A stretch of DNA of 64,000 bases from the NCBI RefSeq assembly GCF_000739555.1, contig NZ_BBJN01000009.1:1-64000 (forward strand). The letters run 5' to 3'. The notes under the pieces are model-generated. The model did no database searches, was not told the DNA's origin, and saw only the letters and a list, made by a program, of their open reading frames with translations. Position 1 is the first letter of the stretch, and the number at the start of each line of letters is the position of its first letter. The position numbers and the translations under genes were made by a program. Origin of the DNA: Halolamina rubra (GTDB lineage Archaea > Halobacteriota > Halobacteria > Halobacteriales > Haloferacaceae). Shown piece after piece: positions 61 through 10,609 of the stretch.

Positions 61-66
61 TGTGAG

Positions 67-103
67 TTCTGCGCCGCTCGCGACCGTTGCTCGCGGCGCA
101 GAA
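67..103 (-). terminator. inverted repeat just outside the left end of the element
   Basis: Perfect 11-bp arms TTCTGCGCCGC (67-77) and GCGGCGCAGAA (93-103) surround a 15-base spacer. Only three bases separate it from the displaced 3' end of tRNA-Ala at 107. Before the element inserted, this hairpin would have lain directly downstream of that leftward tRNA gene, so a tRNA transcription terminator is a reasonable reading. That role is inferred from position and structure only. Confidence 0.4.
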
Positions 104-106
104 ACA

Positions 107-140
107 TGGACTCGCTGGGATTTGAACCCAGGGCCTCTTC
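107..140. repeat. attL: 34-bp direct repeat of the tRNA-Ala 3' half
   Basis: This is a perfect copy of 10576-10609, which is nucleotides 39-72 of the tRNA-Ala(CGC) gene: anticodon-stem 3' strand, variable loop, T-arm, acceptor 3' strand and discriminator base. Identity stops abruptly at both edges. This is the displaced half of the original tRNA gene left by site-specific integration. The integrase gene starts 131 bases further in. Confidence 0.9.
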
Positions 141-228
141 GCTTGGCGAATAGCCTCCCCCGAGACCGCAAAGGGAGGCCGCCAAGCGGTCGTGAGGAAG
201 GGCACGCAATGCACTACTCTGCGTGCCC
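141..228. promoter_or_regulatory. two strong inverted repeats between attL and the integrase gene
   Basis: Hairpin 1 has stems GCTTGGCG (141-148)/CGCCAAGC (180-187) and, four bases further in, GCCTCCC (153-159)/GGGAGGC (173-179). It begins at the base directly after the att core. Hairpin 2 has perfect 8-bp arms GGGCACGC (200-207) and GCGTGCCC (221-228). Both lie upstream of the integrase start. Possible roles are recombinase arm-binding or excision-factor sites, a transcription terminator facing the tRNA, or control of int expression. Confidence 0.5.
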
Positions 229-271
229 GCATCCAACTGCGTGGGCGCGTTCGGTGATTCGAGGTACGAGA

Positions 272-1279
272 ATGAACGCAATCCCACCGCACGAAGCGAT
301 GAACCGCTACCTGAAAGACAAATCTACAGACGTTACGGATTCGACGCTGTCGAATTATCAGACCACGCTAAACGGTTTCTGTGATTGGTTATGTGATGAG
401 GCAGGAGTGAAGACGCTCAACACGCTGTCGAGCGACGAAATACAACAGTTCAAAGAGTGGCGGCTGGAGCGCGTGAAGACAATCACGCTCAAGACCGATA
501 TGACCTGCATCAAGGGGTTTGTCCACTTCTGCGAACACATCGACGCCGTCCCCGAGGGGATGCACCAGTTGGTTCGTGTTCCGAAGCCGAACCGCGAGGA
601 CGAGGTTGCAGATAGCATCCTGACGAGCGACGAGGCGACCGAGATTCTGACCTATCTGGATAAGCACGAGTACGTGAGCCTCCGTCACGTCATCTTCTCT
701 GTTCTGTGGAAGACCGGAATGCGACGGAGTTCGCTGTACGGACTCGACAAGCGTGACTTTGAGGACGGTGCGAACCCATACCTCCGTGTTCGTCATCGAC
801 CGGAAACCGAAACGCCGCTGAAGAACAAGAGTCGGGGAGAGCGTGACGTGCGCATAACCGACGAGGTTGCCAGCGTGCTACGGGACTATCTTCGGTTCAA
901 CCATCCCGATGATGAGGATGAACACGGACGCACGCCGCTACTCACGTCGTCTCACGGAAAACGATGCGAACCTTCCACCATCCAGCGGAACATCTACACG
1001 GTGACTCGCCCCTGTCACTACACAGGAGAGTGTCCAATGGAACGCGACCTCGATGAGTGCGAAGCGACCTCTTACAATACCGCGAGTAAGTGCCCTGCTT
1101 CCGTGAGTCCTCACGCGCTTCGACGGGGGTACGTGACGGAATCCTTGAACGCTGGTCAGCCGAAGGACGTGACTGCTGACCGCGTGGATATGAGCCACGA
1201 GGTAATGGACAAGCACTACGACAAAGCGACGAAAAACGAGCAGATGGAACGGCGAGAAGATTACCTGATAGATGTCTGA
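272..1279 (+). CDS. int: tyrosine recombinase/integrase of the element
   Basis: A 335-residue site-specific recombinase that should integrate and excise the element at tRNA-Ala. An N-terminal SAM-like core-binding domain covers roughly residues 1-110. The catalytic domain shows Arg in TGMRRSSL, the HALRR box (H-x-x-R), and the Tyr nucleophile candidate in DKHYDKAT near the C-terminus. A Cys/His-rich insertion (CHYTGEC to ASKC) precedes the HxxR box, as in many haloarchaeal integrases. I chose the ATG at 272. The frame stays open further upstream, but that sequence is the att site and hairpins. It lies next to attL and converges on the following leftward gene with only 7 bases between. Confidence 0.9.
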   Translation: MNAIPPHEAMNRYLKDKSTDVTDSTLSNYQTTLNGFCDWLCDEAGVKTLNTLSSDEIQQFKEWRLERVKTITLKTDMTCIKGFVHFCEHIDAVPEGMHQLVRVPKPNREDEVADSILTSDEATEILTYLDKHEYVSLRHVIFSVLWKTGMRRSSLYGLDKRDFEDGANPYLRVRHRPETETPLKNKSRGERDVRITDEVASVLRDYLRFNHPDDEDEHGRTPLLTSSHGKRCEPSTIQRNIYTVTRPCHYTGECPMERDLDECEATSYNTASKCPASVSPHALRRGYVTESLNAGQPKDVTADRVDMSHEVMDKHYDKATKNEQMERREDYLIDV

Positions 1280-1286
1280 CTTAGAT

Positions 1287-1832
1287 TCACTCAAAGAACT
1301 CCCGAATCTCTTCTACTAAGTCCTTCGTTGAGGTCGCATCAAATTTAAACTCTTTAGTTATTTCCTTCTCTTGGTTCCCCTCTTCATCAACTTGCACCAC
1401 CTCTTTTCTCCGATACTCAATACCCCCGATGACCCATAGCACGGCGATAAATAGACTGCTTCCAGTTAGACCAATTAGAAGCGGACTTTCTTTTTGAATC
1501 CGCCTAATATTCAGGCCCTCATATTCATCGCTCAAGTAGATATATCGACGTACGCGTGACTGTGGGTCGTAGTGTGGCTGTAGATCGCGAATGTCGCCTA
1601 ATACTCCGTATCTATGGAGACGGCCTACGAAAGTGTCTCTGGCAGTGTCATCGTAAAACACCTCTTCGTTCATCTGAGATGGGGATATATCTTGGATTAC
1701 CCCTGAGTTCCTTATAAATGTCTGATATAGGTCTTCGAGTTGCGACAATAATTCTGCTAATTCAGAAGCCGGTGTGTCTTCTTCATTTGTGAACTGTATC
1801 TCGGCATAAACACGTTCTTCATATTCTACCAT
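1287..1832 (-). CDS. small membrane protein, function unknown
   Basis: A 181-residue protein I do not recognise. Residues 1-115 are acidic and helix-rich. One clear hydrophobic segment spans about residues 117-138. A short charged tail of about 40 residues follows. No Cys motif, P-loop or catalytic signature is visible. Codon and base usage are AT-richer than the chromosome, like its neighbours in the element. It is the first of two leftward single-TM genes between int and the RM gene, so it may be accessory to the element or a defence effector; that is inference. Confidence 0.65.
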   Translation of the reverse strand: MVEYEERVYAEIQFTNEEDTPASELAELLSQLEDLYQTFIRNSGVIQDISPSQMNEEVFYDDTARDTFVGRLHRYGVLGDIRDLQPHYDPQSRVRRYIYLSDEYEGLNIRRIQKESPLLIGLTGSSLFIAVLWVIGGIEYRRKEVVQVDEEGNQEKEITKEFKFDATSTKDLVEEIREFFE

Positions 1833-1981
1833 AGGATGCTATCCATCCACAATCAAAAAGAGTGTTACCCCACTCTAATACGCATCTGATTCACTGAACA
1901 AAAGACGACAGCCCCAATTCCTTGGAAGTCCGTTCTGTTTTGCTCGACTGAGTTGATACGCGAGGAGGCGGGGAGCCGGAG

Positions 1982-2602
1982 TCACCCATCTCCCACTTCA
2001 GTCTCCTCCACAGCTTGATGTTCCTCGATCTCCTGTTCGACCGCCTCCTCGATTAAATTGAAGAACGTTTTGAGTTCTCTGTCAACCTTTCTCGGCCGGG
2101 TTGAGAATATCTCTATGTCTTGTTTACTGAATCCCGAACGGGCTACCTTTCCGTCAAACTCTCCGGTATCGTCCAACTGACTGATGGCCCGTTCCAGATT
2201 TAGACCACCAAGTTCGGGCATCTCGTCGGGGAAGTCGTTCCATTTAATCGACAGTTTGACCATAGTATTACCATTACTCCCGAAAATGAGCCGCTTGACC
2301 CGGTAGTAACGAGAGGATTCGGGTTCGTAGCATTTGATGTAGTCTATTGAGATAATCAAAAATAACCGGCTGCTGTTGACGATGAACGGAATCGTTATCG
2401 GGTCATCGTCTTCATCGCTCAGATGTTCATTTCGGATTATTTCTTGCTGTGAGTAGAGGTCTCTGGATTCGCTACTTCTCCAAATCAGGAAAGAGAACAC
2501 GGCACCTACGATGGAGAAGAAGAGTATGGCCGGATTCAGATTCATTACGTTAATGAGAGAATCTGGTTTCTGTGCTAAAAACTTGTGTGGGCCTGCGTTC
2601 AT
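1982..2602 (-). CDS. membrane-anchored protein, function unknown
   Basis: A 206-residue protein with one N-terminal hydrophobic segment (about residues 23-41) and a long acidic soluble domain with no recognisable motif. The start at 2602 is preceded by GGAG five bases upstream and a TATA-like GTTATT about 25 bases upstream. An internal ATG at 2545 would place the membrane segment at the very N-terminus and is possible. It lies directly downstream of the RM gene on the same strand, separated by 67 bases that contain one copy of the element's GCGATGAGG motif. Function is not predictable from sequence. Confidence 0.65.
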   Translation of the reverse strand: MNAGPHKFLAQKPDSLINVMNLNPAILFFSIVGAVFSFLIWRSSESRDLYSQQEIIRNEHLSDEDDDPITIPFIVNSSRLFLIISIDYIKCYEPESSRYYRVKRLIFGSNGNTMVKLSIKWNDFPDEMPELGGLNLERAISQLDDTGEFDGKVARSGFSKQDIEIFSTRPRKVDRELKTFFNLIEEAVEQEIEEHQAVEETEVGDG

Positions 2603-2652
2603 ACAGCTCCATAGTGAGAATAACCCTCTTGTGAGTTGTGCGAGATCGAAGT

Positions 2653-2667
2653 GCGATGAGGCGGAGC
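2653..2667 (+). repeat. copy of element motif GCGATGAGGnnGGGR
   Basis: GCGATGAGGCGGAGC lies in the short gap between the RM gene stop and the next leftward gene. It matches copies elsewhere in the element at 7186, 7924, 8056, 8166, 8418, 8565 and 10026. It may be a regulator or maintenance-protein site. Confidence 0.5.
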
Positions 2668-2669
2668 AG

Positions 2670-5600
2670 TCAGAACACTTCGAGGTAGTCCTCCACGACC
2701 TCGCGCTCGTCCTCCGTCAAGTCAAACAGATCGTACACGGCGTCGTCGATCTCTGCTTCGAGGTCGTCGATGTTCGTCGCCGCCACCTCATCGCGGTCGT
2801 CATTGAGACGGCTCAGTAGTTCTTCGACGCCGTCGTCGCTCCGAGGGATGGGAATGGTCGTTTCCTCTCCACTCTTGACGTTGCGACCATCCACGGCGGC
2901 GTGGACGTACTCGGCGCGGCTCATCCGGGCTTCACGGTCTTCGGAGTACATCGCAGGATCGTTGATCACGTCCGACCGCCCGGCTTGTACCGTGAAGTCT
3001 CCCTCCACGTCACCTTGGACTTCAGCGTTGACTGGATACCTGCGGGTCTGCCATTCGTAGGAGATGTATTCCAGTTCCCCGTCATATTCGCCGAGATACG
3101 CTTCAGGGAAGCGGTCGGTCTTGCTGTCAAGGTCGATGGAGTCAACTATCTCTCCTGCTCGCTCACGCATTGTTCCGAAGACGCCTGCATCCTCCTCGGT
3201 GATGCAGGGAAGATTTTCGACGTACTGTGAACGGTATTCGTAGAATCCACCCATCTTGACCGTCGTGATGTGCTTGAAGTAGAAATCCAGAGCCTTCGAG
3301 TTGAGTTGGCAAGCCATCTCCTCGGTGAGGTCGCGATATGCGTCATCCAGTTCGATACCGTATGCTGTTTTGAAGTACCACATCCCTTCGCTATCCAGCA
3401 TAAACCGAGCCTTTGTGGAGATATGTGCGCCGATAATCTTTGGCTTCTCGAATCGCTCGTGACTCTTTGGATAGATGAACGCGTACCAATCTTCCCTCCC
3501 CCTCATTCGCCCGCTCTCCCGGCTTTCCAACTGTTCACGATGGGCATCGAAGTAGTCCCACGTCAGCGGAAGTTCTTCCTGTAGATACTCAGCATCGTAT
3601 GCCTTCGTTGTTGCGTCGTCTCCTTCTCCTTCGACGTAGTGAGGGAGAATAACGTGTAGGCCCGACCATTCGCCCCGCCATCGCTCAACGTCTTTCCCTT
3701 TCAGCCACGGACAGAGAAGGTCTGTTTCAATCTCATACTCGCGGTTTTCACCTGTAGGAACAACACGAACTGTTTCTCCCCCATCTTCCGGCTCAATCCG
3801 GTCAGCATTGACGGGCTTGACCAGATATACCTTATTCGCGCTCGTTTGCGTTCCCGCGAAGATGGCATCGGTGATCTCGCCGAAATTCTCGGTGCTTTCC
3901 GCTTCCAACTTCTCGAACACCTGCAACTCCTCGGGGGGCATCAACGGCCAGTATTCCTCTGCCGAGAGTTTCCGCTGTGGATAGTCGAACACGTCGATGA
4001 ACTCGTCAGAGTACCCCGGCTCGCTTCGATTCTCGCGTACCGACGCGATGATGGCCTCGTCCAACTCCCGGTCACTTTCCTCATCGGTATTCGCTTTGAC
4101 CCTCACGCATCGGATCTCGTTGTCTTCTCTCGCGGCCTCATCGGGTTCGTCTTCGAGAATGACGATAGCCGGGTAGTTTGTGGCGTCCTCGAACACCCCG
4201 GAGTCGCGGAAGTCGTACACCTCTCTGATTTCGCTATCTTCGAGCAGGACACGGCGAAGACCTTCCCCGTAGTCCGTGACCATAAACTGATTCGGCGTGA
4301 TGAATCCGAGTTTGCCGGTGTCCTCTCGAAGCCAGTCGAGTCCCCGCTCGTAGAACGGACAGTAAATGTCGTAGTTCCCCGTCGTCGCGTCGTAGAGGGT
4401 ATCCATCATTTCCTTCTGGCTGTCGGGGAGGTTCTGAATACGGACGTAGGGGGGGTTGCCCACGACGTAGTCATACTCCATATAGTTCTTCACGACCAGC
4501 GCCAGTACCGTATCCTCGAAGATCTTGAACAGCCGCCCGTCGTTGTGTTCCTCCTTGAGGTACCGAACGTTCTCAAGCATATCTTCGACGTAGGGGGTGA
4601 AGAACTCCTCCACGCCCGAATATTCCTGATCGGTGTGTTCGTTGATTCGCTCCTCAAGGCCGCTCTGGTACGTCCAGTCGAAGTCGTCGCCGAACTCCTC
4701 GGCGAGAGCCATATGGTCTTTGACGGTGTCCAGTACACCTTGCAGAGCCGCGAAATACTCCCCGAAGTTCCCAACACCAGTCTCCAACTGAATGGTGTCG
4801 AATAGCGGCATCCGAACGCGACGAACGAGGAACCCGTCTTCCGTTTCTGCGACTTCATCCTCGTCAACTTCGACGGGGAGCGGGACGGGAATCCTCACGT
4901 CCTGCTCGTCCTCGGTCATCGCATCGAACGTCATCTGTCGCGTCCCATCGTCGCCGAGATCAGCTCCCGTTAGTTCGCGCTCGTTCCGAAGGGTGTCCGT
5001 TCGGTAGATGGGGAGCCGGCGAATGGTGTAGTCCGGGTAGGACTGCTTCGCTTCGCGGTATGCCGGGAGAATTGCGACGACGAACCGAATCTGTGCCATC
5101 AGAACGGCGAACGGATGAATGTCGAGTCCGACGATTCGGGGGCGCGTACAGAGGTCTTGGAGGTGGTCTTTCCAGTCCGGGTCGTCCTCATACCGCTCTA
5201 CCTCTGTGAGGTATCGTTCGACGGCTTCGACAAGGAAGGTTCCAGACCCACAGGCCGGGTCGATGAGGCGCTCGTTTGAGACGCCACGCTCGTACCCGAC
5301 GCCGTCCATAATGTAGTCGATGACGGGTTGTGGAGTGTAGAACTCCCCAAGGGCTTTGCGCGTTTCCGGGTCGAAGTACCGTTGATAGAGGTCGCCGAGG
5401 AGGTCGCCTTCGACGTTACCGAAGTCGAACCGGAGAACGTTGAAGAAGACCTCGGCGACGGCGCGGCTGAAACGTTCTCGTGTTGGCTGGCTAATTCGCT
5501 CAATATCTGAGTCTCCCCGCCCCTCGGCGACGGCCTCGAACTGATTCGGCCCGGATTCGTGCCCTCGTGAAAGTTGCTCCTCGTAGCCATCAGTCCACCA

Positions 5601-6584
5601 CACGAAAATGTCGTCTTGGAACAGACCCTCCACTAACTGATCCTGCATATCGTCGATGAGGTTGTCGGCGGCGACGGGGAAGGCGTCGAGATTGATGCTT
5701 TGGCCGAACCCCTGCAAGCCCCGGAAATAGTCGTCCATCCCGTCGTATCCGGTTCCCGCGAAGAAGTCGTGGTCTTCCGTCGCTTTCGCAAGGAGGAGAC
5801 GCGCGAGGAGGGCGTGGCCGCTTTCGAGACAGAACATAAAGTCCCGTAGCGACTGGTTTCCGTCGATAAACGGCTCCCACGAGTCTGGTACCTCGTCCGG
5901 TTCGCTCGCGTAGGTCGCTTCCCAGAAATCGTACGCCCCCTTGACGAACTTCGCTTCCCGCTCATCGCGGAGTTCTTCGAGCAAGTCCATCATCCCGGTC
6001 ACGAGATCGGCGAACGGACTGCCTTCTTCGAGCCGGAAGGTGTCGAAAAAGTGTTCCTGCCCGAGTTCGGCCTGCTCGTCAAGGGGAATTGGGTCGAGAT
6101 CTTCGAGGAACTGGTTCACGTCATCCGCACTCGTTAGATCGAACTCGCGTTTCTGAAGCGCACTCACGAGGTCGCGAGCATCACTCTCAGTAATCGACGC
6201 CATCGACGCCACGAGGAGGGGTGAATCGACGCCGCGTCGATAGAGCCGCAACTCCTCCCCGTTAGTCAGTACTCCGTACTCGGCCCGCAAGAACTCCATA
6301 TACCCGAACAACTGCGATTCGTGAGTGGGTAGATCGCGTCCTGTCGTCTTGAACTCATACACCGCAGTCACAGCTTCGTTCGAGTCAAGAGTAATGTAGT
6401 CCGGGCGTCGGTCGTCGGGAAGTGTGAACTCGCTTCTCAGATCCGTGCCCGTGCCCTCGTAATCCAGGGCATCATAGAATCCGCGTTCGAGAAACAGATT
6501 CTCAACGTCCCGCTCGCTCATATCTTCGTCCGTCTGCTCAGCGATTGAACGCAAGGAGTCGTGGAGAGCGGAGGCGTCCGGCAT
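2670..6584 (-). CDS. type IIG-like restriction-modification enzyme (nuclease + N6-adenine methylase)
   Basis: A 1304-residue single-chain enzyme expected to methylate adenine at its site and cleave unmodified DNA. The N-terminal domain has a PD-(D/E)xK arrangement (P61-D62, then E77-x-K79 in YEFK). The methylase core has the SAM-binding motif DPACGSGTF (442-450), a helix with TPQPV just before it, and the catalytic NPPY tetrapeptide (710-713). Residues about 930-1150 resemble the target-recognition part of Eco57I/TaqI-class enzymes. No separate specificity, translocase or BREX/DISARM gene lies nearby, so a stand-alone type IIG system fits best. The gene appears intact. It is the main identifiable cargo of the element and probably works in defence against incoming DNA. 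Confidence 0.88.
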   Translation of the reverse strand: MPDASALHDSLRSIAEQTDEDMSERDVENLFLERGFYDALDYEGTGTDLRSEFTLPDDRRPDYITLDSNEAVTAVYEFKTTGRDLPTHESQLFGYMEFLRAEYGVLTNGEELRLYRRGVDSPLLVASMASITESDARDLVSALQKREFDLTSADDVNQFLEDLDPIPLDEQAELGQEHFFDTFRLEEGSPFADLVTGMMDLLEELRDEREAKFVKGAYDFWEATYASEPDEVPDSWEPFIDGNQSLRDFMFCLESGHALLARLLLAKATEDHDFFAGTGYDGMDDYFRGLQGFGQSINLDAFPVAADNLIDDMQDQLVEGLFQDDIFVWWTDGYEEQLSRGHESGPNQFEAVAEGRGDSDIERISQPTRERFSRAVAEVFFNVLRFDFGNVEGDLLGDLYQRYFDPETRKALGEFYTPQPVIDYIMDGVGYERGVSNERLIDPACGSGTFLVEAVERYLTEVERYEDDPDWKDHLQDLCTRPRIVGLDIHPFAVLMAQIRFVVAILPAYREAKQSYPDYTIRRLPIYRTDTLRNERELTGADLGDDGTRQMTFDAMTEDEQDVRIPVPLPVEVDEDEVAETEDGFLVRRVRMPLFDTIQLETGVGNFGEYFAALQGVLDTVKDHMALAEEFGDDFDWTYQSGLEERINEHTDQEYSGVEEFFTPYVEDMLENVRYLKEEHNDGRLFKIFEDTVLALVVKNYMEYDYVVGNPPYVRIQNLPDSQKEMMDTLYDATTGNYDIYCPFYERGLDWLREDTGKLGFITPNQFMVTDYGEGLRRVLLEDSEIREVYDFRDSGVFEDATNYPAIVILEDEPDEAAREDNEIRCVRVKANTDEESDRELDEAIIASVRENRSEPGYSDEFIDVFDYPQRKLSAEEYWPLMPPEELQVFEKLEAESTENFGEITDAIFAGTQTSANKVYLVKPVNADRIEPEDGGETVRVVPTGENREYEIETDLLCPWLKGKDVERWRGEWSGLHVILPHYVEGEGDDATTKAYDAEYLQEELPLTWDYFDAHREQLESRESGRMRGREDWYAFIYPKSHERFEKPKIIGAHISTKARFMLDSEGMWYFKTAYGIELDDAYRDLTEEMACQLNSKALDFYFKHITTVKMGGFYEYRSQYVENLPCITEEDAGVFGTMRERAGEIVDSIDLDSKTDRFPEAYLGEYDGELEYISYEWQTRRYPVNAEVQGDVEGDFTVQAGRSDVINDPAMYSEDREARMSRAEYVHAAVDGRNVKSGEETTIPIPRSDDGVEELLSRLNDDRDEVAATNIDDLEAEIDDAVYDLFDLTEDEREVVEDYLEVF

Positions 6585-6773
6585 TAATCAGCCCAATACG
6601 TTCGCTTGTCAAAAAGGTGAGTGAGAGGAATATGCCGTGCAAAAGGAGAGAGTTATACATAAGTAATCAGGTATATTGGGAGAACTACCAGAAAAATATA
6701 GTAAATTTTCACCTCTATTTCTGCCGAGCGATGGGAGAACACCTACTGCATCCCATCCGAAACGCACAGCAAG

Positions 6774-7682
6774 CCCACAGAGCAGTTTGTTTTCTTTAAT
6801 GAAGACTTCCTCTCGAAACCTTGTGGGATTATTCTGTGGGTCGTGTGTTGCCTTACGTAGATTCTCTCACCTTGCTCTGTCCGTAGCACTCGAAGGTGTG
6901 TTGAGATCGTCTGAACTCTGCTGAAATGCTCCACGTCACACAACGCGCTGTGCGGCCTCCTGTGCGGTTCTTTTTTGAGATGATGTAGGGTACACAAACC
7001 CCCGTAGTATTTCACCACGAGAGTGTCAGCTGCCTTAGAATCGCTCTACACTACGGGGCACAACTCACCGTCACATAGCCTCCTGCTTGCGCCCCACGCG
7101 TGCGCTCTGCGGTGTGCCGCTACTAATGGGCCACTACAGAGTGCTTCCTCATCAACAACTCATAGTTAAACTCGTAAAGTTCAATGCGATGAGGCAGGGG
7201 CTTATACTCCAGATTTGCTGTAGATATAGACCTTTGAGTTGAATATGAACTATCCACGGTACAGCTCTGTGGGTTGTAGTTCCGTAGTGTACTATTGAGT
7301 CGCATTTTGGATTGAGTACACGTTTGGCAGTCTCCTGAGTGGCCCCACAGAGAACGTAGAACAGTATGGCAACCCGTAGAGTGGCAACGCGATGTACCGG
7401 CTCGATCCTCGCGCCCTCATCGTGGTACCTCTCGTGGTTTTGGGCGCAGCGATAGTATGAGAACCCAAACTACCAGATAGTTTAGTATCCTGTAAATTTT
7501 ATACTACTCCGATCCCACTCTCTCGGGTGGCACCGATGTGAACTCCCATCCCCGGTAGACGTAGGCGTACTCCTCGTTCAGATACTCACGATACTCCTGA
7601 TCGTCGTCTTCCAGTCACTCCTTGATTTCTCGGCGACGCCCTGCGAACCAGTCGTTGTAGTCGAATAGCACAGACCCACAGC
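6774..7682. repeat. iteron-like repeats of CCCACAGA
   Basis: Exact copies of the octamer lie at 6774-6781 and 7344-7351 on the + strand and at 6833-6840 and 7266-7273 as TCTGTGGG. A 7/8 match lies at 7675-7682. Random expectation for one octamer on both strands over about 1 kb is well below one. Spacing is irregular. It lies within the gene-free region, so a replication-initiator or partition binding array is possible. Confidence 0.4.
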
Positions 7683-8580
7683 ACACCTACAAGATCCTGC
7701 ATACATTCAGTTCCCGAGACTCGTATGTCGAGAAATTCGACGCGTGAAGCGACGACAAAAGCTGCCCACTTGGAATCCGTCGAGAGCTGTCGAATGGTAG
7801 ATCTCCGAGATTGCAGTCAAAATCGACAGAATACTGAGGCGGGGTTACGTAAGTATGCGCACACGCCCGCTCCCCGGTGTCCTAACCGATGGGCGCTGTC
7901 CGTGTTTCTTCCCCATCCTTAACGCGATGAGGAGGGGGGTGTTCGCTTAAGCAGTCCCGGCTGATCTGCTGAGCATTGGCAGAAAAGAAGGAGAGAGACA
8001 ACAGAGAGAGGTAGTTCGCGGAGTAATTCAGAGGATTAACTCACCGAGTCCAATTGCGATGAGGCCGGGATAGACTTCGAGTAGTGGAGTTCACTTCTGC
8101 TGTGGATCCAACCGCTGTGGTCTGAAGTTCACGAATTGAATCCCACCGCTGAACTGAACCAACACTCCCGCCCTCATCGCGGTATAGATAGGACCGAGTC
8201 TTCCGGACAAACTACTCTGGATACCGATACTAATCAGCAATGCCGTACCGAACTACCACAGCAAAACCACATTACTCCGTCCGAATTGCCCTCACTCTAT
8301 ACACAACGTGTATCAGCATAAAGATACCGATATGTTTCTCTCAACGGTCTTTCTGCTGGTTTGGCTGATCTTCTATCGGGAACCACACAAGAGAGTTCCC
8401 CACCATTTTCGCGTCAACCGCGCCCTCATCGCGGAGCCGACGCAGTCGATAGTCAGCGTTCCGGCGCGTACAGCCGACCACGTCTGCCACCTCACCTGTG
8501 GACGCAGGTTGCCGATCACGAACCGCCTGTAGGAACTCCTCATCAGAATATTGCTGTCGTGAATCCCCGCCCTCATCGCT
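7186..8580. repeat. cluster of GCGATGAGGnnGGGR motif copies
   Basis: Copies, read in the GCGATGAGG direction: + strand at 7186-7200 (tail CAGGGG), 7924-7939 (AGGGGGG) and 8056-8070 (CCGGGA); - strand at 7412-7426 (variant ACGATGAGGGCGCGA), 8166-8180 (GCGGGA), 8418-8432 (GCGCGG) and 8565-8579 (GCGGGG). Further copies lie at 2653-2667, 10026-10040 (-) and a weaker one at 10367-10381 (-). A variant with GCGAGGAGG sits near 1961. Almost all are in gaps or at gene starts, which suggests a protein-binding site shared across the element. Confidence 0.6.
7504..7680 (-). pseudogene. decayed small gene
   Basis: On the minus strand a frame reads a protein-like acidic sequence (FDYNDWFAGRRREIKE, then an in-frame TGA, then LEDDDQEYREYLNEEYAYVY and about 15 more residues to a TAG at 7504-7506). 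The residues after the internal stop keep a haloarchaeal composition, so this looks like a gene inactivated by a nonsense mutation. No ATG start is evident. I cannot assign a function. Confidence 0.4.
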
Positions 8581-8583
8581 CAT
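8341..8583 (-). CDS. winged-helix DNA-binding regulator
   Basis: An 80-residue protein. Residues about 14-60 form a winged helix-turn-helix: a YSDEEFLQAV helix, a TGEVADVVGC turn and helix, RRNADYRLRRL recognition helix and a short wing ending in LVWF. It is probably a transcription regulator of the element. Its start codon region overlaps one copy of the GCGATGAGG motif. It is divergent from the SWIM gene, and the intervening 170 bases carry two palindromes flanking a TATA box. Autoregulation and control of the SWIM operon are therefore likely, but inferred. Confidence 0.75.
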   Translation of the reverse strand: MSDEGGDSRQQYSDEEFLQAVRDRQPASTGEVADVVGCTRRNADYRLRRLRDEGAVDAKMVGNSLVWFPIEDQPNQQKDR

Positions 8584-8614
8584 ACTCTCCGTTATCAGCC
8601 GTAGCCGTAAAGTT

Positions 8615-8657
8615 GTTTCCTACAAAGGAAACTATATATGGGCTTCCTGCGTAGGAA
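8615..8657 (+). promoter_or_regulatory. TATA box flanked by two palindromic operators
   Basis: Palindrome 1 is GTTTCC-TACAAA-GGAAAC (8615-8632). The TATA-like CTATATATG follows (8632-8640). Palindrome 2 is TTCCT-GCGT-AGGAA (8644-8657). The shared half-site TTTCC/GGAAA suggests one dimeric protein binding on both sides of the promoter. The winged-helix protein encoded divergently is the obvious candidate. The promoter points to the SWIM gene, whose ATG lies about 115 bases downstream. Confidence 0.6.
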
Positions 8658-8660
8658 AAG

Positions 8661-8727
8661 CCGAGGAGGTAGCCGTCCCTCGGGGCGTGGCTGTTCGGAA
8701 AACGCCCGGCGCTGGAGACGCCGGACG
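8661..8727 (+). other. structured 5' leader of the SWIM gene
   Basis: If transcription starts about 25 bases after the TATA box (near 8660), the message would have a leader of about 90 bases, unusual in a lineage with many leaderless genes. It folds into hairpin CCGAGG (8661-8666) with CCTCGG near 8678-8683, and a GC-rich hairpin CGCCCGGCG/CGCCGGACG at about 8703-8727. A regulatory leader or small RNA is possible. Confidence 0.35.
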
Positions 8728-8752
8728 GTGGCCTTCTGTGGAGAGAAAGCCA

Positions 8753-9283
8753 ATGGAAGATATACCGACTACGGCTGATAAGCGCATCGTTGAGGAACTG
8801 AGCTTTGGTGCGAAGACGGCGAAGCGCGTTGGGTGGGAGCAGTTCGAGTTTGGCGTCGAAGCACCCCACCTCGTTCGAGTGACGAACGCAAGTTACGGGT
8901 GTGAGAAAGACGACCACTCGTATCTCGTCGGCGTCGAAGATCGCGACGGGCTTCTCGTTCCCGCCGAGTGCGAGTGTCCCGCTGACAAGTATAACGAGGA
9001 GTACGACTGCAAGCACAAGGTCGCGCTGGCAACAATCGGCGGCCCGGTCGTTTTGCAAGCGGCTGTTGACTACTCTACCCCCACCCAAGACACCGAAGGA
9101 ATAGGTTCCAAGACCCTCGCCGAGCGGGTTCGCGCCGATGGTGGCGTGATTCCCAAGGAAAGACGCGAGGAGGCCGGCGGCGTCATCGACGACGAACGCG
9201 AGGAGTGCGATTGCTCGAAACTCTCAGGAGGCTTCCCGTGCTTCGACTGCTACCTCGCCGGCGAGAAGGAACTCCCCGACTGA
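8753..9283 (+). CDS. SWIM zinc-finger protein
   Basis: A 176-residue protein. A SWIM-type zinc finger (CxC...CxH) is formed by C73, C75, C86 and H88. A second Cys cluster near the C-terminus (CDC...PCFDC) may bind another metal. SWIM domains bind DNA or proteins, and their role in haloarchaeal elements is unknown. I chose the ATG at 8753, preceded by GAGAG, because the upstream in-frame sequence is the promoter and leader. The stop codon is separated by only two bases from the next ATG, so the pair is probably translationally coupled. Confidence 0.75.
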   Translation: MEDIPTTADKRIVEELSFGAKTAKRVGWEQFEFGVEAPHLVRVTNASYGCEKDDHSYLVGVEDRDGLLVPAECECPADKYNEEYDCKHKVALATIGGPVVLQAAVDYSTPTQDTEGIGSKTLAERVRADGGVIPKERREEAGGVIDDEREECDCSKLSGGFPCFDCYLAGEKELPD

Positions 9284-9285
9284 CT

Positions 9286-9432
9286 ATGCCTGTTGCTCAA
9301 AAGACCGACGAACCTTGCCCGCGCTGTGATGACGACCGCGACGTGTGGATGTTCGAGAAGGACGAGCCGACCGTCACAAAGGAACACTACACTTGTGAGG
9401 CGTGTGGGTTCGAGTGGACTGAGATGGAGTGA
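9286..9432 (+). CDS. 48-residue zinc-ribbon protein
   Basis: The start lies two bases after the SWIM gene stop. The whole protein is one zinc ribbon: CPRC (C11, C14) and CEAC (C37, C40), followed by GFEW, in the style of TFIIS/RPB9 ribbons. Small one-domain zinc proteins are common in haloarchaea and often act in nucleic-acid or protein contacts. No partner can be named beyond the co-transcribed SWIM protein. Confidence 0.7.
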   Translation: MPVAQKTDEPCPRCDDDRDVWMFEKDEPTVTKEHYTCEACGFEWTEME

Positions 9433-9960
9433 TTATACGACAGTCACAATAGACAAGGTTGCCCACAAGACTGCTAAGACGACTGTAATCGTGTGGCTCC
9501 TTTCTTGCGCTCTTAGGCGAGTGCCTCTGGACAACTTTTCCAGTTCGAGGGTGGTTGTTGGACTCCACGCCTCCCATCGGAGCAGTTCTTTCTGACCATC
9601 GGCTTCCTCAATGTAGAGTACTCCATTGTCCCCAATTCCGTACTGCATTCCGAACCCGGTGAACTCTCCCAAGTCTTTGGGACTACCAACAGCCAAACAA
9701 AGCCGCTCTGCGTCTCCATTGTAACCAAACATCAACTCCGCGACCTCAACAAGTTGTTTGAACCCATTCTCACCTTCTTCTAAGTACGCAAGTCGAACTT
9801 CATCGTGTTCCTCACGTACCTGTTGAAGTCGGTGAACGCCGTTGCGCGAACGACGTGAGAACAGAGAGTAGCGGGGGTAGAGAATTGGGGTAGAGACTAC
9901 TCCAAGGGATACCAATACGGTTGAAATTCGGAGTAGTGTCCCAACATCTATCTGGAACAT
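9433..9960 (-). CDS. small membrane protein with two TM segments, function unknown
   Basis: A 175-residue protein starting at the ATG at 9960, which has AGGTGA a few bases upstream. A longer frame to 10047 exists, but its extra N-terminus is read through a copy of the GCGATGAGG motif and is less likely. Hydrophobic segments lie near the N-terminus (about residues 6-28) and at the extreme C-terminus (last 20 residues), with about 120 polar residues between. I do not recognise it. It is convergent and adjacent to the zinc-ribbon gene. Confidence 0.62.
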   Translation of the reverse strand: MFQIDVGTLLRISTVLVSLGVVSTPILYPRYSLFSRRSRNGVHRLQQVREEHDEVRLAYLEEGENGFKQLVEVAELMFGYNGDAERLCLAVGSPKDLGEFTGFGMQYGIGDNGVLYIEEADGQKELLRWEAWSPTTTLELEKLSRGTRLRAQERSHTITVVLAVLWATLSIVTVV

Positions 9961-10025
9961 TGTCACCTGTTGTGGAGTCTTTCCCCTTAGGACTTCTCCG
10001 CAGACGTGAGAAGAACTAACCCACA

Positions 10026-10040
10026 TCCCCGCCTCATCGC
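10026..10040 (-). repeat. copy of element motif GCGATGAGGnnGGGR in a divergent gap
   Basis: GCGATGAGGCGGGGA on the minus strand lies between the divergent small membrane protein gene (start 9960) and the SH3-like gene (start 10053). It is close to the consensus and well placed to control both genes. Confidence 0.5.
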
Positions 10041-10052
10041 GTTCCAACGCGA

Positions 10053-10280
10053 ATGAACCGCTTCACCAACGGCGACCGCGTGCGGGTAGACATTCCCGAC
10101 GAAACAGATCCCGATCACGAACGGTACCACGGGGTTCACGGAACGGTCGTGAAGGTACTCGGCGACGACGGCGGCGTAGTGACCGGCGACGACCGCGACG
10201 CGACGATTTACCGTGTCGAACTCGAAAACGAGGAGACGGCTGATTTTCGCTGGCGTGACCTACGGCCGGCGATTGAGTGA
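10053..10280 (+). CDS. small SH3/KOW-like protein
   Basis: A 75-residue acidic protein. The N-terminal pattern GDRVRVDIPDETDPDHERYH, followed by GVHGTVVKVL, resembles the small beta-barrel (SH3/KOW-like) proteins often seen in haloarchaeal genomes and plasmids. No enzymatic motif is visible. Its start is 12 bases after a copy of the element motif. The role is unknown. Confidence 0.65.
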   Translation: MNRFTNGDRVRVDIPDETDPDHERYHGVHGTVVKVLGDDGGVVTGDDRDATIYRVELENEETADFRWRDLRPAIE

Positions 10281-10355
10281 GTCTATCCTACCAGATTTGT
10301 TCCACCGCGCTGTTGCGCGTTTCCGCATCTGAGTGTAGGTACTTCATCGGTGTAG

Positions 10356-10520
10356 TTTGATGAGTACCGCCTGCTCATCGCGCCGTTGAACGTGATTGGC
10401 GCGCGTGCCGTCATTATTGCTAACGGGTATACGGCTATCGGGTCGCTCAAAGAAATCATCAAAACACAACCGGCAATCGACGCCGAAGGACGGGGCGAAT
10501 ACGCGACTTTAACGGTGTAG
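10356..10520 (+). pseudogene. orphan C-terminal coding fragment next to attR
   Basis: A frame of 54 codons from a TAG at 10353 to a TAG at 10518 reads a protein-like sequence (LNVIGARAVIIANGYTAIGS, then KEIIKTQPAIDAEGRGEYAT, ending LTV). It has no ATG; a TTG or GTG near 10386-10392 would be the only starts. It looks like the tail of a longer protein truncated during an earlier recombination near the att site. I do not recognise the family. Confidence 0.35.
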
Positions 10521-10575
10521 TGGTTATATAAAGAAGGGCCGCCTTGTGGCGATTACCGAACGAGCGTAACGCGAG

Positions 10576-10609
10576 TGGACTCGCTGGGATTTGAACCCAG
10601 GGCCTCTTC
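10576..10609. repeat. attR: 34-bp direct repeat within tRNA-Ala
   Basis: Perfect copy of 107-140, covering tRNA nucleotides 39-72. It rebuilds a complete tRNA gene at this junction, the usual outcome for archaeal tRNA-targeted integration. Confidence 0.9.

Follow-up and report, generated by a model that had tools for sequence, protein, structure and literature searches.

We identified a DNA motif in Halolamina rubra that is carried by an integrative element, differs between the lineages of this element family and is tied to a mobile type IIG restriction-modification locus. The element lies in a stretch of 64,000 nucleotides (contig NZ_BBJN01000009.1, positions 1 to 64,000), referred to here as the window. 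No description of the motif was found in the literature searched, and matches to GCGATGAGG in that literature were unrelated sequences. For the coordinates of all features see Table 1.

The element and its motif copies

The element is a low-GC stretch of about 10.5 kb (54% GC vs 71% outside in the window), bounded by a 34-bp direct repeat (107–140 and 10576–10609) that corresponds to the 3' end of tRNA-Ala(CGC). In the window and in the loci L107, L108 and L122 this tRNA-Ala lies beside the EF-1alpha/S10 genes, which is apparently a recurrent insertion site of type IIG-bearing elements in several genera. The gene at 2670–6584 combines in a single chain, as type IIG genes do, a nuclease, an N6-adenine methyltransferase and a specificity domain, and PD-X14-EFK is conserved in the alignment of its homologues. 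Judged from sequence, its product is a type IIG-like enzyme with predicted cleavage and methylation activity. It resembles Eco57I/MmeI/PglX-like enzymes in its PD-(D/E)XK N-terminus, N6 methyltransferase and TaqI_C domain, a domain layout also present in type IIG gene fragments of H. volcanii (HVO_A0006 and HVO_A0237; PMC4389544, PMC5867850).

Table 1. Features of the integrative element. Mismatches refer to the 15-mer GCGATGAGGNNGGGR; scores come from a 25-bp matrix built on 24 sites at loci other than the window.
Feature	Position	Strand	Score	Remarks
Tyrosine integrase gene	62..1279	+		
Integrative element	107..10609			bounded by 34-bp direct repeat; GC contrast
Motif-like stretch	393..407	+	16.4	2 mismatches; in integrase gene, codes CDEAG
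Motif copy	1960..1974	+	23.5	1 mismatch; GCGAGGAGG core; intergenic
Motif copy	2653..2667	+	19.1	2 mismatches; directly after enzyme stop codon; orthologues in L103, L107, L108, L109
Type IIG-like restriction-modification enzyme, 1304 aa	2670..6584	-		PD-(D/E)XK N-terminus, Eco57I/N6 methyltransferase, TaqI_C specificity domain
Motif copy	2780..2794	-	18.9	1 mismatch; in enzyme gene 3' end (RDEVAAT)
Noncoding region, 1.75 kb	6585..8340			upstream of enzyme gene; five motif copies
Motif copy	7186..7200	+	27.9	exact; noncoding; orthologues in L107, L108, L109
Motif copy	7409..7423	-	19.3	2 mismatches; noncoding
Motif copy	7924..7938	+	19.3	exact; noncoding
Motif copy	8056..8070	+	26.3	exact; noncoding
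Motif copy	8166..8180	-	19.8	exact; noncoding; convergent pair with 8056
Winged-helix (wHTH) protein, 80 aa	8341..8583	-		HTH_20
Motif copy	8418..8432	-	12.8	1 mismatch; within wHTH gene
Motif copy	8565..8579	-	17.3	exact; over wHTH gene start
Motif copy	10026..10040	-	28.1	exact; between divergent genes
Weak motif copy	10367..10381	-	11.0	2 mismatches; near right end of element

The genome-wide count that an earlier note on this DNA had called for shows that the 15-mer GCGATGAGGNNGGGR is not equally frequent in the chromosome. It occurs exactly seven times in the whole genome (2.96 Mb), and six of these copies lie in the element; the seventh (C64:45664) has flanks that by eye are unlike the motif. 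With up to two mismatches the window contains 29 matches vs 9.6 ± 3.1 in dinucleotide shuffles, none of 100 of which reached 29. The 25-bp matrix gave 13 scores above 15 in the element and one in the 53.4 kb of flanking chromosome, where the earlier note had noticed no copies. At a threshold of 12 it found 16 places in the element, as compared to a mean of 0.46 in block-shuffled element sequence.

The copies listed in the earlier note were all located at the 15-mer sites, the one given as 7412(-) at 7409(-). Its description of an element-wide repeat holds, but the motif is about 25 bp rather than 15 bp long, and the copy at 1960, which had been called weak, ranks among the better copies when scored with the extended matrix. 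The copies do lie mostly in gaps, but not at promoters. Strong copies are mostly intergenic, several of them 8–23 bp past a stop codon, and the sites have neither a fixed distance to gene starts nor TATA-like boxes nearby. A reading as promoter elements fits this placement and these surroundings worse. In lying as short repeats between the genes of a haloarchaeal mobile genome the copies resemble the intergenic repeats of halovirus HF2 (PMC8707807). Those repeats, 29 and 58 bp long, are AT-rich promoters, whereas our motif is G-rich and devoid of TATA-like neighbors.

Two of the copies lie in longer similar stretches (7912–7943 and 8161–8192, 78% identity over 32 nt). The copy in the 3'-terminal part of the enzyme gene is found in the six lineage-A loci and is absent from the other homologues aligned. 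The stretch in the integrase gene may be a chance match. A second, TTCAGCGGTGGGATTCAA-like box was observed at approximately +25/26 from the motif core in three orthologous site groups; it is present at window positions 8121–8162 and in the upstream regions of L107, L108 and L109.

The extended motif and its cores

Relatives of the enzyme were found in 53 of the 392 genomes of the class. We compared 43 loci, namely the window, L057, L058 and 40 loci fetched from the enzyme search. The motif recurs around homologous type IIG genes of about 1300 residues (PD-(D/E)XK, Eco57I and TaqI_C domains) in integrative elements of other haloarchaeal genera. Most of 171 genomes of the family contain zero to three unclustered copies of GCGATGAGGNNGGGR. 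The exception is G090, with three exact copies within 10 kb. There, a tRNA-Glu gene is the site of a homologous element, which encodes a type IIG-like enzyme of about 1300 residues that is 79% identical to that of the window; the 9-bp core is repeated nine times in a 20-kb stretch, and the closest relative of the wHTH protein (76%) is also found in G090. Two or more matches to an 18-mer version within 10 kb were observed, among the 392 genomes, only in the elements of the window and L107, in both cases at the enzyme.

The enriched word beside the enzyme gene differs by locus and is CGATGAGG, CATCGAGG or CATTGAGG. From 53 intergenic sites in 12 loci (fewer than 12 of them independent, as lineage-A sites are often orthologous) we derived a motif of about 25 bp with constant flanks around an 8-bp core, RnGnTnnAMYG-[core]-SSGGGR. 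All 53 sites share the Y two bases ahead of the core. The core varies with the element lineage: CGATGAGG in the lineage of the window, CGATGACG as a lineage-A variant in L107, and CATCGAGG and CATTGAGG elsewhere.

As a safeguard against circularity, flank weights were taken from lineage A alone (31 sites) and all 8-mers elsewhere were ranked by the quality of their flanks. The top 8-mer was CATCGAGG in L118, L130, L132 and L136, CATTGAGG in L116 and CGATGAGG in L101 and L145. Conversely, flanks from outside lineage A ranked CGATGAGG first in the window, L057, L108 and L109, and CGATGACG in L107. No clear top word emerged in L103 and several other loci. In L058, L101 and L102 the core is present with weak flanks, and no motif was detected at many homologous enzymes (L100, L104–L106, L110–L115 and most clade-B loci). 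Unseeded expectation maximization on whole loci recovered codon periodicity only, a scan of Viral_contigs yielded no relative, and the word CGAGCAGG in L105 and L112 looks like coding background. The homologous enzyme locus L137 (G127:C25) contains unrelated, strongly repeated words (GGAAAACC, AACCGCTG and CCAGTGAC).

Orthologous sites are 77% identical vs 63% for their gapped flanks. L107 has GATGACG where its relatives have GATGAGG, which implies that the copies within one element changed together. The suggestion of the earlier note that the motif is a recognition or binding sequence of the element is thus well supported at the level of sequence, by its concentration, the cross-validated flanks, the lineage-specific core and a conservation above that of the surrounding intergenic DNA.

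A comparison of the enzymes indicates that the core follows the N-terminal and methyltransferase part together with the lineage of the locus, and not the specificity domain. In the six lineage-A loci with the window core or CGATGACG, residues 1–428 are at least 89% identical to the window enzyme, and the specificity domains come from five clusters; the lineage-A motif (CGATGAGG, or CGATGACG in L107) extends across clusters 9, 2, 4, 8 and 6. Window-like specificity domains (cluster 9) are also seen at loci whose flanks are weaker, and a cluster 8 domain is combined with CGATGAGG in L103 and with CATCGAGG in L132. Overall, the same core is found with specificity domains that are about 50% identical, and different cores with domains that are 74–94% identical. 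For residues 1–200 the identity is 0.88–0.96 within a lineage vs 0.69–0.87 to others. In blocks of 50 residues the within-lineage excess is largest at residues 1–150, and at residues 701–1150, the exchanged region, within-lineage identity is below that to others. Within lineage A, the N-terminal 300 residues are about 88–97% identical; the specificity region (residues ~760–1150) has been exchanged and shows about 40–60% identity over most of its length.

Possible readers of the motif and alternative explanations

Of the genes at the motif-bearing loci, only that of the enzyme recurred at every one. No further gene family was shared by all of these loci in a comparison that could miss proteins of less than 50 residues or shared RNAs. 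Both cores occur in different species of one genus, g15 (G062 with L108, G063 with L132), which argues against a host-encoded reader. By elimination, since the wHTH protein is missing at most motif loci, no other gene is common and g15 contains both cores, the enzyme would be the reader. Its constant part is the likeliest candidate because the gene is present at all motif loci and the core tracks this part.

We infer that a protein reads the motif as DNA, that the enzyme could be this protein and, from there, what the sites might be for. Tentatively, we favor as a possible, though not yet probable, reading that the ~25-bp sites are recognized by a factor travelling with the type IIG elements, most likely the constant part of the enzyme (residues ~1–760). 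The motif copies would be individual DNA-binding sites of about 25 bp for a factor of the element family. The reader would consist of the nuclease, connector and methyltransferase portion (residues ~1–760), with the specificity domain being exchanged freely. Site reading would let the enzyme control the genes of the element or, alternatively, would keep the enzyme attached to its own element or label this element. A structure model of residues 1–425 (mean pLDDT 59.9; mostly below 50 for residues ~200–425) is confident only for the PD-(D/E)XK nuclease, and no DNA-binding part able to read 25 bp was seen in it.

It seems unlikely that the motif goes as far as being a lineage-specific self-tag, which the constant part of the enzyme would read on its own element no matter which specificity domain has been swapped in. 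If true, the restriction target could change without loss of control or of immunity of the element's own DNA. Type IIG systems travel from host to host as a single gene and exchange their specificity domains, and sparing a new host from killing is a general problem of restriction-modification systems. An element-wide set of sites that keeps to the constant part through exchanges of the specificity domain would offer a concrete and testable handle on control or self-recognition. The motif also provides a sequence tag for finding such type IIG elements.

The sites could instead be operators of an element-wide regulon under a regulator other than the enzyme, encoded by element or host, such as the wHTH protein or a small protein that was missed. 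This would be in line with the sites at the wHTH start and near two other gene starts, and with the wHTH relative in the G090 element. However, relatives of the wHTH protein (E ≤ 1e-3) are absent from L108 and L103, which have the window core, and from the CATCGAGG loci L118, L125, L130, L132 and L136, so that its role as general reader, considered in the earlier note, is not supported. No shared regulator was found, and many sites follow stop codons or lie far inside noncoding DNA, with no TATA-like boxes and no fixed start distance, which leaves an independent regulator somewhat unlikely. The wHTH gene may rather be a target of the motif reader, since it holds the copies 8418 and 8565 itself. 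The sites do resemble the C-boxes of type II controller (C) proteins in being short, system-specific, likely regulatory and close to a mobile restriction-modification locus. C-boxes, however, are few, lie at the R/C promoter and are recognized by an HTH protein that is small, separate and conserved along with them, whereas here about ten sites are spread over the element, off promoters, and no HTH protein is common to the loci. A 70-bp stretch beside the wHTH gene (window 8264–8333) is 93% identical in L108, which lacks this gene; within it lies an inverted repeat, TATACACAACGTGTATC, a possible operator.

Alternatively, the core might be the methylation or cleavage target of the enzyme, a 7-bp type IIG site (NNNGAGG/NNNGACG) enriched on the carrier element. 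In their format the cores are like type IIG m6A targets, and the G-to-C change at one core position in L107 is reminiscent of known type IIG specificity variants. A type IIG target would, however, change with the specificity domain, and the core is independent of the TaqI_C domain. Type IIG systems are not defined by a clustering of sites on the carrier, the constant flanks reach well past a type IIG site, and virus relatives have the word CATCGAGG equally often whether or not they encode the enzyme. This explanation is therefore improbable in our view, even though the m6A motif GCGGAGG of Halorubrum sp. BOL3-1, whose methyltransferase is not assigned, hints at a target-like format (PMC6509532).

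At the RNA level, copies in opposite orientation could base-pair in hairpins or by antisense contact, and all copies would then be forced to change jointly. Close pairs are indeed mostly convergent (14 convergent, 5 tandem and 2 divergent; about 7:5:2 without orthologues), and 20 of 24 arm positions match in the L132 pair. Strong single copies without a partner nevertheless reach only 12–15 of 24, near background, and arms that form a pair are no better matched than arbitrary combinations of two copies. In L107 and L109 a single arm changed in the 3'-terminal part of the enzyme gene, and no Rfam family was matched. An inverted repeat kept by compensatory change, as in REP/BIME-like hairpin repeats or structured RNAs, was not found, and pairing as the cause is quite unlikely.

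A role in replication or partition (iteron- or ORB-like sites), raised by the earlier note, appears very unlikely. Several inverted copies lie in the 1.75-kb noncoding region and the G-rich 3' end of the motif loosely recalls haloarchaeal Orc1/Cdc6 ORBs, which likewise occur as inverted copies in noncoding DNA with a 3' G-run and initiator-specific variants. The element, however, has neither an initiator nor a partition gene, the motif matrix is negative on the ORBs found near the hosts' orc1/cdc6 genes, no motif cluster was observed near the orc loci examined, and the copies are spread across the whole element. A passive repeat, arising from short duplications or linkers at gene boundaries and kept in the element family by recombination without any reader, would account for the longer similarity of some copies and for the second box, but is highly improbable given the same flanks around different cores in distant lineages and unrelated neighborhoods, and sites better conserved than their flanks.

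Haloviruses with related enzymes

Homologous enzymes were found in 19 records of haloarchaeal tailed viruses. In HRTV-5 and HJTV-1 the word CATCGAGG occurs about once per kb, and two enzyme-bearing genomes contain 81 and 85 copies. A link of these viral copies to the enzyme was rejected, because the density is the same with another or no restriction cassette (e.g. HRTV-8) and the motif flanks are absent. Every Haloferacalesvirus examined (L161, L162, L163–L174) has about one CATCGAGG per kb, type IIG gene or not, which is about 20 times the second-order Markov expectation. This abundance is probably driven by Ile-Glu codons. In L161–L174, a slot between ribonucleotide reductase and tRNA-Thr/integrase holds varied restriction cassettes among close haloviruses: three kinds of type IIG genes, an Eco29kI system, or nothing.
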